64,000 nt of DNA from Oscillospiraceae bacterium (GTDB taxonomy: Bacteria > Bacillota > Clostridia > Oscillospirales > CAG-272), in NCBI GenBank assembly GCA_015063685.1, contig SVTR01000001.1:62001-126000 (forward strand), read 5' to 3'. The position numbers were made by a program, and so were the translations under genes. Below, in pieces: positions 3,682-64,000 of the stretch. Numbering within the stretch: position 1 is the first letter of the stretch; each line of letters starts with the position of its first letter. Under the pieces are notes generated by a model, which had not been told where the DNA came from, did no database searches, and was given only the letters and a program-made list of their open reading frames with translations.

Positions 3682-4061
3682 TAAATTGTTGTTTACCACC
3701 TACGGTGGGGCTTTGGTTCAGGGGAGTGCATCCTGTGCGAGCTGCATACCGCGATGGGGAGTACAACGGTAAATTGTTGTTTATGGGCGTTTACTGACCA
3801 ACGCGGTCATCCTGAGCAAGGCCGCTGGCCGCGCCGAAGGATCTCTTTATACCTGTAAAAAAACATTGTCATAAAAAGGTTTTGCTTCCTGTGGGATCCT
3901 TCGACTCGGGCATCGCCCTCGCTCAGGATGACTGTTTCAAGGCGGGGCACAACAACGCTAAACAACAATTTATCGTTGTACCGCCCCTCGCGGGATGTTC
4001 GTGGCACAGGATGCACTACCCCGAGCAATGGCAGCCGGCACGGCCGGCAAACAACAATTCA
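3682..4061. repeat. Mirror-symmetric repeat island 1 between dnaE and a small gene
   Basis: This fills the dnaE upstream gap. The boundary motif occurs as TAAATTGTTGTTTA at 3682-3695 and 3770-3783. It recurs in the opposite orientation at 3959-3972 and, slightly degenerate, at 4049-4061. A module of about 74-76 bp lies between each pair. The left module (3696-3769) and the right module (3973-4048) are reverse-complement relatives, sharing AGTGCATCCTGTGC and GTACAACG. The centre (3784-3958) holds a different palindrome. The last motif overlaps the stop codon of the 80-aa gene at 4059. No ORF in the stretch looks real. Confidence 0.85.
3806..3932. repeat. Palindromic element at the centre of island 1
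   Basis: Perfect 12-bp terminal inverted repeats, GTCATCCTGAGC (3806-3817) and GCTCAGGATGAC (3921-3932), enclose a second inverted pair, GAAGGATC (3836-3843) and GATCCTTC (3895-3902). The element is 127 bp and has no coding capacity. It resembles small non-autonomous palindromic repeats common in bacterial genomes; the family is not identified here. Confidence 0.75.
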
Positions 4062-35891: not shown

Positions 35892-36054
35892 AGTGTTTTC
35901 CCTTTCTTGTGGCAAAGGTATGGTTTCATTCATTGTACCATATAGAGCAAAGAAAAGCAAGGGAAAAAAAGTAAAAAGAATCAGTCCAAACGCTTCATTT
36001 TCTAAGCCGCTGGTTGCCAGATTACCGCAAATACCAAAGTCTCCCTATCTCTGC

Positions 36055-36440
36055 CAAAACAAAAACACCAAGCGCATGGCTAAACGGAGGATTCGAACCC
36101 CGCTTCTCCGCCTGCGGGCGGACGAAGCACGACCTTGCTCGGCGGATGAATTCCGCCGTTTGCTATGCAAAACGCAAGTGTCGTCCACGGCGCGGCTTCG
36201 CCTCGCCACGATTTCTCAAGCTCCCCACCTCGGCCAAAACAAAAACACCAAGCGCATGACTAAACGGAGGATTCGAACCCCGCTTCGCCGCCTGTGGGCG
36301 GACGAAGCACGACCTTGCTCGGCGGATGAATTCCGCCGTTTGCTATGCAAAACGCAAGTGTCGTCCACGGCGCGGCTTCGCCTCGCCACGATTTCTCAAG
36401 CTCCCCACCTCTGCCAAAACAAAAACACCAAGCACATGGC
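36055..36440. repeat. 180-bp tandem repeat array derived from a tRNA 3' end and terminator
   Basis: Two nearly identical units of exactly 180 bp (36055-36234, 36235-36414) and the first part of a third (36415-36440). Read on the minus strand, each unit ends with a TψC-arm-like GTTCGAATCCTCC followed by the CTTGGTGTTTTTG terminator arm, the same order as in the intact tRNA-Trp next door. Units differ at only a few positions. The translations in this stretch are not genes. The space 35892-36054 holds nothing else I can support. Confidence 0.85.
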
Positions 36441-36451
36441 TTGGTGTTTTT
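36417..36451 (-). terminator. Terminator of tRNA-Trp
   Basis: AAAAACACCAAGC and GCTTGGTGTTTTT form a 13-bp perfect stem with a 5-nt loop, T-rich on the minus strand, immediately after the tRNA 3' end. Confidence 0.85.
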
Positions 36452-42618: not shown

Positions 42619-43671
42619 TTACATGCCAAAGCTTCTCAGGTAGAACTTGTATTCCATCTTCATCTTGGAGTAAAGCACTGCCGTAGCGATGAAGAAGATG
42701 CTACCCAGCACGAAGGCCACAAGGCCGCCGGTGAGGGCAAGGAAGCCGATAGAGAAGATGTAAGTAAGAACGGTGATCCAGGTCTTGTGGAAGATCACTG
42801 CGAAGATCATGAGGATGACCAGGAAGGTAGCATAACCGTTGATCAGGCTCACGACCATGTTCAGTGCCATAACGGCTTCGTCGTCTTCACCGACTGTGAT
42901 CTCGCCGATCTTGGCCAGGTGGCTGATGGACAGGGGATCGAACAGATCTCTGAACTCCTCAAGAGTCATATCCATTTCATCTTCCAGATCCTCTACGCTG
43001 ATACCGAACTCGCGCTCGAAGTCTCTCCAGTTATCTTCATCATCCAGAGCGTCATCGACGATATCAAGCATATCGCTGTATTCTTCGTCGATCTCATCCA
43101 TATCCTGACCCAGGCTGTCACCAATCATGGAAACAAGGGGAATCTTGAAAATAGAACCGTTGACAAAGCTGTTAGCAGACAGGATCAGAGTCAGAATGCA
43201 AGCGAGACCCAAAGCGAGGGCCACGATGTTGATAACTCTGAACTTCACGGAAGCTTCCTTCCAGAAGAACTTATATCTGCCGGCGGGACGGCCCGTATTG
43301 GGAGCGGGCTGCTGATACTGAGGCTGACCCTGGTAGGGCTGCTGGTACTGGGGCTGACCCTGGTAGGGCTGCTGATACTGGGGCTGACCCTGGTAGGGCT
43401 GCTGGTACTGGGGCTGACCCTGGTAGGGCTGCTGGTACTGAGGCTGACCCTGGTAGGGCTGCTGGTACTGAGGCTGTGCCTGCTGCTGGGGCTGTGCCTG
43501 CTGCTGGGGCTGTGCCTGCTGCTGAGGCTGCTCCTGCTGCTGAGGCTGCGCCTGCTGCTGAGGCTGCGCCTGCTGCTGAGCGTTCTCGTTAGCCTGTGCT
43601 ACGGGATGGTTGCAGGAAGGGCAATTCTTTGCATCTTCAGGCAACTGATTTCCACAATTAGGACAAAACAT
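42619..43671 (-). CDS. Zinc-ribbon membrane protein with Gln-rich decapeptide repeats
   Basis: A 350-aa protein. Residues 1-25 form a zinc ribbon (CPNCGNQL, then CPSCNHP). Residues 30-70 are Gln/Ala/Pro-rich. Five copies of a QPYQGQPQYQ-type decapeptide follow (about 68-122). The C-terminal part carries hydrophobic segments near 148-172, 275-298 and 305-340, with a highly acidic loop between the first and second (DSLGQDMDEIDEEYSDMLD). The ribosome site is AAGGAGAGG. Such zinc-ribbon membrane proteins are common in Clostridia without a defined function. The nucleotide repeats are regular enough to vary in copy number between strains. Confidence 0.82.
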   Translation of the reverse strand: MFCPNCGNQLPEDAKNCPSCNHPVAQANENAQQQAQPQQQAQPQQQEQPQQQAQPQQQAQPQQQAQPQYQQPYQGQPQYQQPYQGQPQYQQPYQGQPQYQQPYQGQPQYQQPYQGQPQYQQPAPNTGRPAGRYKFFWKEASVKFRVINIVALALGLACILTLILSANSFVNGSIFKIPLVSMIGDSLGQDMDEIDEEYSDMLDIVDDALDDEDNWRDFEREFGISVEDLEDEMDMTLEEFRDLFDPLSISHLAKIGEITVGEDDEAVMALNMVVSLINGYATFLVILMIFAVIFHKTWITVLTYIFSIGFLALTGGLVAFVLGSIFFIATAVLYSKMKMEYKFYLRSFGM

Positions 43672-50141: not shown

Positions 50142-51064
50142 ATTGTTCATGTAAACCACCTGCGGTGGGGCTTTGGCTCGGAGGAGTGCATCCTAAGCCA
50201 TAGGCATCACGCGATGGGTAATTGGTCAAATAAATTGTTGTTTAGCATTCTTTCCACTTTTCTGCCCACGGCGGCATGAAAAGACGCCGCAAGCGGCCCA
50301 AAAGAGCGCCGCTTAGTGCAGAACCTACGGTTCTCCCTAAGAACCCAACTCCCTCGTGACGCACGCAGACCACAGAGGTGGTCTGCTATTGCGTATTTCT
50401 TTTCAGCCACCGGCGGTGGCACGCCCCCACGGCGGAGCGCCTCGGGGCTCATCGAAAAGCCAATTGACATGTTTCTGTTGGCAGAACAGCGGGAGGTTCA
50501 GGGTCATGTAGCGAAGCTATAGTTCTGATGGCGAATGGACAAATAATGTTGTTTTTTAATCAAAAAATCTCCTTTCGCCGTGAGAACTATGGATTCAATG
50601 CTGTACTTCAACATTGAATTTCTTCAAACCCACTAACGCTTTCTAAACAGTACGGTATGAGCCTCAAGGCGCTCCGCCGCAGGGGCGGGCTATCGGCGTT
50701 GGCTGACACAAAACACGCGATAGCCGCTCCACTCCCTTTCGGGGAGCGGCGTGCGTCACGAGGGAGTTGGGTTCTTAGGGAGAACCGTAGGTTCTGCACT
50801 AAGCGGCGTTCTTTACTCCACTTTCTTTCGCCGAGGAAAGAAAGTGGAAAAGAACATAAACAACAATTTATCTGACCAACTGTTCATCGCGGTATGCGGC
50901 CTGCATGGGTTGAACATCCCCGAGCGTTGGCAGCCGGCACGGCCGGCAAACAACAATTTATCCGCCCAACTACCCATTGCGGGATGCGGTACGCACAGGA
51001 TGCACTACCCCGAGCGTTGACCGCGGCACGGCCGCCCCCACCGCAGGTGGTAAACAACAATTTA
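50142..51064. repeat. Mirror-symmetric repeat island 2 between uvrC and rsmD
   Basis: Left part: a degenerate motif near 50142-50156, a module (50157-50230), then TAAATTGTTGTTTA at 50231-50244. Centre: a palindromic block of about 610 bp (50245-50856). Right part: TAAACAACAATTTA-type motifs at 50857-50870, 50948-50960 and 51051-51064 separated by modules of 77 and 90 bp. Left and right modules are in opposite orientation. The last motif ends 6 bp from the uvrC stop codon. Short translations in this block are unlikely to be genes. Confidence 0.85.
50307..50808. repeat. 60-bp perfect inverted repeats in the centre of island 2
   Basis: 50307-50366 and 50749-50808 are exact reverse complements over 60 bp. 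An inner pair, 50431-50452 and 50657-50678, matches at 20 of 22 positions. The region between the inner pair has no ORF that I can support. Confidence 0.88.
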
Positions 51065-62747: not shown

Positions 62748-63354
62748 TAAATTGTTGTTTACCACCTGCGGTGGGGCTCCGGCTCGGGGGAGTGCATCCT
62801 GTGCGAAACTCATACCGCGATGGGTAGTTGGGCGGATAAATTGTTGTTTACCACCTGCGGTGGGGCTTTGACTCGGGGATGTTTAACTTATGCGAGCCGT
62901 GTCCCACGATGGGGGGTAAGCCTGTAAATTGTTGTTTGCGTGGGCTTACTATGAACCCGTAGGGGCGAACTGCGTTCGCCCGCCGTTCCCCAAAAGCCTT
63001 TGTTTATCAATATACTTTTTATTACGGGCGAACACAGTTCGCCCCTACGACCACGTTGGTCAGAAGCCCGCAAACAACAATTTATCTAATCAACTACCCA
63101 TCGCGGTATGCGGCTTGCATGGGTTGAACATCCCCGAGCGTTGGCCGCGGGCACTGCCCGCAAACAACAATTTATCTGCCTAACCACCCATCGCGTGATG
63201 CAGTAGGTACAGGATGCACTACCCCGAGCGTTGGCCGCGGGCACTGCCCGCTAAACAACAATTTATCCGCCCAACTACCCATCGCGTGATGCAGTAGGTA
63301 CAGGATGCACTACCCCGAGCCAAAGCCCCACCGCAGGTGGCAAACAACAATTTA
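62748..63354. repeat. Mirror-symmetric repeat island 3
   Basis: Left side: TAAATTGTTGTTTA-type motifs at 62748-62761, 62837-62850 and 62925-62938 separated by modules of 75 and 74 bp. Centre: a palindrome (62939-63070). Right side: TAAACAACAATTTA-type motifs at 63071-63084, 63161-63174, 63252-63265 and 63341-63354 with modules of 76-77 bp between them. Left and right modules are reverse complements of one family (GAGTGCATCCTGT, ACCGCGATGGGTAGTTGGGCGGAT and their complements). Each module carries a short GC hairpin next to the motif, which differs between modules. The last motif contains the stop codon of the LiaF-like gene. Confidence 0.9.
62959..63048. repeat. Palindromic element at the centre of island 3
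   Basis: 62959-62982 and 63025-63048 are inverted repeats matching at 23 of 24 positions (GTAGGGGCGAACTG at the outer end), enclosing 42 bp without an ORF. Similar GTAGGGGCGA-type palindromes are widely dispersed in bacterial genomes. Confidence 0.8.
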
Positions 63355-64000
63355 CTTGATCGAAATTTCTCCAAAGGAGCAATCTGCGTTGATATACAGA
63401 GTCGGTGCCGTAGGATCGCTCGAATCCGTGTGACGATTGGAAACCTCTCCGAAGGCGGCGGAGGGGTTCAGCTCCACCTTAACGTCAGGGGGTAGCAAGA
63501 TATCAATCTCGCCAAAGGAGCAACGGGCGTCGATAACTGCGGGATCCTCAATGAGGGCGCCGCGCAGATCAAGGTTCAGCTGCCCGAAAGCGGCATTCAG
63601 CGTAGCGCTGGAAAAGGCCTGTCCGTCCACAACTACGGTGCGCTCACCGAAGCGAACGGAATATGTGTTGGCACCGTCAGCATGGGTCGTGACCGTACTG
63701 AATTTCTCCCGCTTTCTGCGTTTTACCCGGCGAAACAGAGGAGACAACAGAATGCGAAGTCCCACGAAAATGATGGCCACGGCCAGCACGATGGCAGCGG
63801 CTTTTCCAAACTCAAAATTCTGTTGATTAGACAGAAGAATCAACACACCAACGAGAAAAATCACGGGCCAGAAAATCGACGTGGGACGTCGGATGAAAAA
63901 GTACAGCGCCGGCACGATGAGGAACAAAGACCCCCATCCCGGGAAAAAGAGGGTAAAATTCTGCCAGGGGCAAAAATCCAGGTAATTACCAAGATATCCC
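63352..64000 (-). CDS. LiaF-like membrane protein, N-terminus beyond the window
   Basis: The reading frame is open to the right edge (at least 216 codons). The visible part begins GYLGNYLDFCPW, followed by two or three membrane helices (LFLIVPALYFFI; WPVIFLVGVLILLS; AAAIVLAVAIIFVGLRILL), a basic cytoplasmic segment (RRVKRRKREKF), and a C-terminal beta domain with repeated AFGQ, SFGEIDI, AFGEVS and SFGEISI motifs. This is the pattern of the LiaF/YvqF cell-wall-stress proteins. A TTG at 63927 is not the start, since coding sequence continues upstream. The stop codon TAA is part of the last boundary motif of repeat island 3. LiaRS-type genes would be expected outside the window, if present. Confidence 0.8.
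   Translation of the reverse strand, partial: GYLGNYLDFCPWQNFTLFFPGWGSLFLIVPALYFFIRRPTSIFWPVIFLVGVLILLSNQQNFEFGKAAAIVLAVAIIFVGLRILLSPLFRRVKRRKREKFSTVTTHADGANTYSVRFGERTVVVDGQAFSSATLNAAFGQLNLDLRGALIEDPAVIDARCSFGEIDILLPPDVKVELNPSAAFGEVSNRHTDSSDPTAPTLYINADCSFGEISIK

Follow-up and report, generated by a model that had tools for sequence, protein, structure and literature searches.

Outward-pointing 13-bp repeats bound modular islands in uncultured Clostridia: a probable MITE-like family, possibly with exchange of motif-bounded cassettes

Island 3 (62748–63354) lies in a 64,000-nucleotide stretch of DNA (the window) from the 2.72-Mb draft genome of an uncultured gut bacterium of the Oscillospiraceae. 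Within the island, a short boundary motif recurs next to GC hairpins of differing sequence. A sequence-only reading saw here the signature either of a structure under selection, as in RNA, or of cassette exchange.

All seven boundary motifs attributed to island 3 are present as exact 13-bp copies, three on the left (TAAATTGTTGTTT) and four on the right (AAACAACAATTTA), and all point outward from a core of 134 bp. The island consists of two minus modules, the core and three plus modules; the modules are 75–78 bp long without the motif and about 90 bp with it, and carry a GC hairpin on the inner side of the motif, directly beside it. The outermost left motif, a terminal repeat (62748–62760, minus strand), is followed by a 76-bp minus module (62761–62836) with hairpin CCACCTGCGGTGG at 62762–62774, the second left motif (62837–62849, minus), a 75-bp minus module (62850–62924) with the same hairpin at 62851–62863, and the inner left motif (62925–62937, minus), which is the left end of the core. 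The core, designated type A (62938–63071), contains inverted GTAGGGGCG... palindromes (62958–62982 and 63025–63049), assigned to the REP type by their association with RAYT genes. The inner right motif (63072–63084, plus) is the right end of the core. The plus modules occupy 63085–63161 (hairpin GCGGGCACTGCCCGC at 63147–63161), 63175–63252 (hairpin GCGGGCACTGCCCGC at 63237–63251) and 63266–63341 (hairpin CCACCGCAGGTGG at 63328–63340, the reverse complement of CCACCTGCGGTGG); they end in plus-strand motifs at 63162–63174, 63253–63265 and, outermost, 63342–63354. On the minus strand, positions 63352–63354 form the TAA stop codon of the adjoining minus-strand ORF (63352–63999). The hairpin had been described as constant in place and variable in sequence; this is accurate for the five motifs that end a module, but not for the inner motifs at 62925 and 63072, which are core ends and have no module hairpin.

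The window contains 14 exact copies of the 13-mer. Island 1 (3682–4061) comprises one minus module, a type B core (177 bp, 3783–3959) and one plus module, which ends in hairpin GCCGGCACGGCCGGC (ending at 4048) and a motif with one mismatch. Island 2 (50156–51064) comprises a minus module (50156–50230) with a decayed outer motif, a type C core (614 bp, 50244–50857) and two plus modules. Hairpin GCCGGCACGGCCGGC is present here too, ending at 50947, and the outer plus module, 91 bp long, has two hairpins in tandem. Modules of about 91 bp whose motif is preceded by two different tandem hairpins were noted at 1163–1253 of L014 and at 50961–51051 of the window; they look as if a single hairpin had been added by itself. 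Tandem repeats are found in the window at 36041–36441 (180 bp) and 43246–43575 (30 bp).

The genome contains about 280 exact motifs, the 14-mer AAACAACAATTTAT occurring 160 times and AAACAACAATTTAC 123 times; since the reversed patterns had 0 matches, a chance origin is excluded. The motifs belong to roughly a hundred islands, small non-coding mobile repeats in this genome. Four members of the genus are rich in the motif, namely the window's genome (G000) and the sister species G001, G003 and G004, and it was not found in eight other members. A scan of 395 genomes of the family gave convincing further copies only in G037 and G268; G037 has four islands or more, whose cores and one module resemble those of G003. 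In a scan of named genomes, the motif was detected in several more uncultured Clostridia from metagenomes, including those of water-deer and roe-deer gut, and in distant uncultured Clostridia the same 13-mer encloses quite different cores. In another of the uncultured Clostridia (L169, 1077–1299), both island ends carry the same variant, TAAATTGGTGTTT ... AAACACCAATTTA, as if both had changed together. Matches in Faecalitalea (L217), G245 and G225 have no island structure and look like chance matches. A 17-mer search also gave matches in viral contigs.

Parsing of 130 islands from the four species into 276 segments showed a strict polarity: minus motifs precede plus motifs in all 130, and the reverse order was never seen. 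Each arm carries 0–4 modules, every one made up of a body, a hairpin and a repeat. Module-free islands, in which the motif directly adjoins the core at both ends, also occur, including in other uncultured Clostridia. One module family is common to all four species (165 segments); the cores are mostly species-specific and of many unrelated types. A motif lies directly upstream of 198 of the 222 module matches, the remainder being mostly partial matches or matches with decayed motifs. Cores A and D consist of inverted pairs of GTAGGGGCG... palindromes such as the RAYT genes in these genomes also carry, and are REP pairs of the RAYT type. The largest spacing between motifs is about 870 bp (L208, 1101–2097, with an 865-bp core). 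This L208 core is largely composed of direct repeats of about 250 bp with GTAGGGGCGAC REPs.

Within the arms, mutated motifs are more frequent in outer (33/102) than in inner positions (16/102; p = 0.008; 29 versus 10 in paired comparison), so the outer parts look older. Modules from the left and right arms of one island resemble each other no more than random pairs do, and the arms are often unequal; a palindromic parent split by nested insertion was rejected on these grounds. Among islands sharing a core, the likeness of adjacent modules (0.692) does not exceed that of controls (0.695). Near-identical modules were found in different islands in 32 pairs; beyond the bounding motifs, the sequence on either side is unrelated in most of them, and in about a third the inner neighbour also matches. 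Because such pairs mostly have unrelated neighbours and are uncoupled from core identity, modules appear to spread largely as motif-bounded units, sometimes with the core; joint movement of core and module was discarded as a general rule, although some pairs share both. Cassette exchange is thus the better supported half of the earlier interpretation.

The islands sit at TA dinucleotides in short gaps between genes. A TA is always present on both sides but lies within the 13-mer, and no longer duplication was seen. The flanks outside both outermost motifs show a weak palindromic preference, TA|YCTnnYYAA, which the start of the modules, TCTGCCTAAC, also matches. Of 65 gene ends that face an island, 17 have the motif's TAA as their stop codon. 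When eight islands were followed into relatives by synteny, five of the sites were occupied in at least one relative. Occupants with a different core each time were found in four species at the site of L027 island 3 and in three at that of L045 island 2. Window island 3 is absent from G001; in G004, a different core, whose left boundary is less certain, occurs at the same stop codon. At the site of window island 2, G001 has a core that also resembles type C. The site of L027 island 4 contains different cores in G000 and G001 and is empty in G003, where a TAA stop stands at that place; in G004 it reads TA-AATT-TA, an apparent deletion or excision scar, as if two repeats had collapsed. Flank matching yielded further pairs of islands at shared sites, some with exact boundaries and others a few bases off. 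Since the motifs at shared sites have few mismatches despite diverged flanks, they are the products of renewal in place or of fresh insertion at the same TA.

Of 159 module tails, 92% have a hairpin with a stem of 5 bp or more, compared with 10% of shuffled tails. Covariation was assessed on 33 distinct tails against 500 shuffles: 86.4% of the cells in hairpin stems are paired versus 67.7% (0/500), 34 cells have changed on both stem sides versus 12.2, and the covariation score, 0.488 versus 0.176, was reached by 0/500 shuffles and falls when the partner is slid. Measures counting pairs or pair types showed no clear excess over shuffles (77/500 and 144/500). The proposal that paired changes keep the stem is borne out, compensatory changes being present in the module tails; they represent few independent events, however, because the variants amount to about six discrete stem alleles (GCGGGC, GGCGGC, GCCGGC, GCCGC/GCGGC, CCACC and partners) with point mutants, some hairpins combining arms from two alleles. 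Swapping of whole hairpins contributes to the stem variation. The structure is kept and its alleles are also swapped, and RNA in particular is not indicated. G–T and A–C mismatches are both rare in the stems and give no indication as to which strand matters. The module hairpins have no GTAG tag beside them, the hairpin being followed by AAACAACAATTTA.

These observations bear directly on the possible explanations. If the islands were conserved RNA elements, with hairpins acting in transcripts as 5′ leaders, stabilisers or terminators, the paired stem changes and the position of many islands between a stop codon and the start region of the next gene would be accounted for. This is nonetheless highly improbable: every two-armed island has its arms in both orientations, the orientations of the flanking genes are mixed (23 ++, 18 −−, 12 divergent and 12 convergent), an Rfam search of the window matched only a tRNA and no family for the modules, no T-run follows the hairpin, and the module outside the hairpin has no consensus fold. 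More probably, the islands constitute a non-autonomous MITE-like family whose terminal inverted repeats are 13 bp long (TAAATTGTTGTTT ... AAACAACAATTTA) and whose members are located at TA, often that of a TAA stop codon. An element would comprise a core (paired palindromic repeats, of the REP type or another), a repeat at each end and 0–4 modules per side, and could be delimited by any pair of outward-facing repeats. Mobility would be due to an enzyme that works on the repeats in trans; cores would insert at TA, and the inner unit could be lost and another take its place there, with old shells remaining outside. Modules would be copied as repeat-bounded units, and the end recognised as folded DNA may include the hairpin beside the repeat. 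Several points weigh against this MITE-like reading. The TA lies within the 13-mer, which leaves target duplication unproven, and plain transposition by terminal inverted repeats does not explain modules with one repeat. The repeats at shared sites are also less diverged than vertical inheritance suggests, and repeated insertion may have taken place there instead of the survival of an old shell.

Template switching, single-strand mobility or a site-specific recombinase would account for the copying of one-motif modules. Exchange could proceed without a transposase if repeats and hairpins stalled replication forks and a template switch between islands copied segments from motif to motif, polarity being kept since the switch needs the same repeat orientation. 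Segments indeed end at the motif with order and orientation always kept, identical modules lie in unrelated surroundings, cores differ at orthologous sites, and the TA-AATT-TA scar resembles a deletion between short repeats. This is a possible, if rather unlikely, explanation, as it accounts neither for islands at new TA sites with a two-sided palindromic target preference nor for the same 13-mer enclosing quite different cores in distant Clostridia. An unlikely alternative would make the 13-bp motif and hairpin the recombination site of gene-less cassettes of about 90 bp, inserted behind any site in fixed polarity by a hypothetical recombinase, with cores exchanged between inverted sites at conserved positions. 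Single-strand mobility of the HUH/Y1 (REP/RAYT-like) type, in which the hairpin and AAACAACAATTTA would form a nicking site and modules would leave as single-stranded DNA circles and insert 3′ of another site, giving one-way arrays, is more doubtful still. It fits the fixed place of the hairpin in 92% of modules, its conserved pairing, the outward extension of modules that almost always follow a motif, and the presence of RAYT genes. The RAYTs, however, carry GTAG REPs, i.e., they belong with the core palindromes, and none was found near the motif; G004 contains the motif without any PF01797 match, and neither symmetric inverted ends nor a two-sided target preference would be expected.

The search for an enzyme partner of the MITE-like family covered PF13358, PF01609 and PF01797 loci and disclosed no transposase with these ends; contigs of the draft genomes often end at the islands, and the gene may have been lost from the assemblies in this way. 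An IS630 transposase was rejected, PF13358 being without a match in the four motif-rich genomes, as was an IS4/IS5-type enzyme, the single PF01609 match (in G004) having no motif at its flanks. PF01797 (RAYT) genes have no motif within 1.5 kb; one RAYT protein passes the NCBIfam cut-off for a REP-associated tyrosine transposase. An autonomous copy with a longer interior was also discarded, the L208 maximum being filled with repeats and containing no transposase-like ORF.

Like the bacterial MITEs Correia/NEMIS, RUP, Nezha and ERIC, the islands are short, non-coding, dispersed and intergenic, have terminal inverted repeats (the outermost 13-mers are inverted at the island ends, and minimal islands are module-free) and are presumed to be mobilised in trans. 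They differ in sharing one 13-bp end among many unrelated cores and species, in having further copies of that end on the modules stacked beyond the core and in the failure to find a cognate transposase. In integrons, cassettes form one-way arrays and each terminates in a short site by a structured palindrome. The cassettes of the islands likewise end in a short site beside a hairpin, but they are gene-less, with a length of about 90 bp, the arrays run both ways from the core, and AAACAACAATTTA / TAAATTGTTGTTT does not fit the attC core consensus RYYYAAC/GTTRRRY. In Streptococcus pneumoniae and S. suis, BOX elements are similarly modular and MITE-like and vary in their count of tandem modules, the boxB units between boxA and boxC (PMC3049150). 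However, boxB lies between two ends, whereas the modules of the islands are placed outside the core to its left and right, each closed by a terminal repeat, and end modules enclosing tandem inner modules are not a feature of the islands. The BrickBuilt-type MITE of Porphyromonas gingivalis (PMC4596501) is similar in having an internal tandem array (a minisatellite), and TIMEs (PMC4133298) in being mosaic non-autonomous elements with reused ends; the parts of these two accounts that were consulted make no mention of motif-bounded cassettes stacked outside a core in fixed polarity. An exact text search for the motif in open-licence papers returned nothing relevant. Stacking outside the core in one direction, together with core swapping at conserved sites, is unusual, and the islands are best read as a MITE-like family with a new modular architecture, possibly a motif-bounded cassette-exchange system. 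If so, growing directional arrays can arise from simple terminal repeats, which can also serve as landing sites where the position stays and the contents turn over. Because orthologous sites can hold different cores, stand empty or show a collapsed scar, the process lends itself to testing among close strains.

The cores resemble GTAG REPs, REPINs/BIMEs and the systems of RAYTs (PMC3733652, PMC3116915) in that types A and D are made of inverted pairs of GTAGGGGCG... palindromes and the genome has RAYT genes with such REPs. The tag by the palindrome and a RAYT gene with the same kind of REP were found for these two cores only; the 13-bp motif and module hairpins, in contrast, are without the GTAG tag and not near RAYT genes. 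GTAG REPs with RAYTs, and REPs within coding regions, have been described (PMC3733652). RAYT-like genes with GTAGGGGCG REP palindromes in their own coding sequence were also noted here (L008, 1456–2244; L009, 1432–1923; L010, 1456–2025; L005, about 1459–1640), the REPs encoding peptides such as VGATLRGRP and VGADSISARM. A second small element (GGGCATCTCTAAAAA ... TTTAGAGATGCCC) lies inside a 13-bp motif at about 2034–2193 of L141, its insertion having apparently duplicated AACA; similar junctions are present in L023, L028 and L030.
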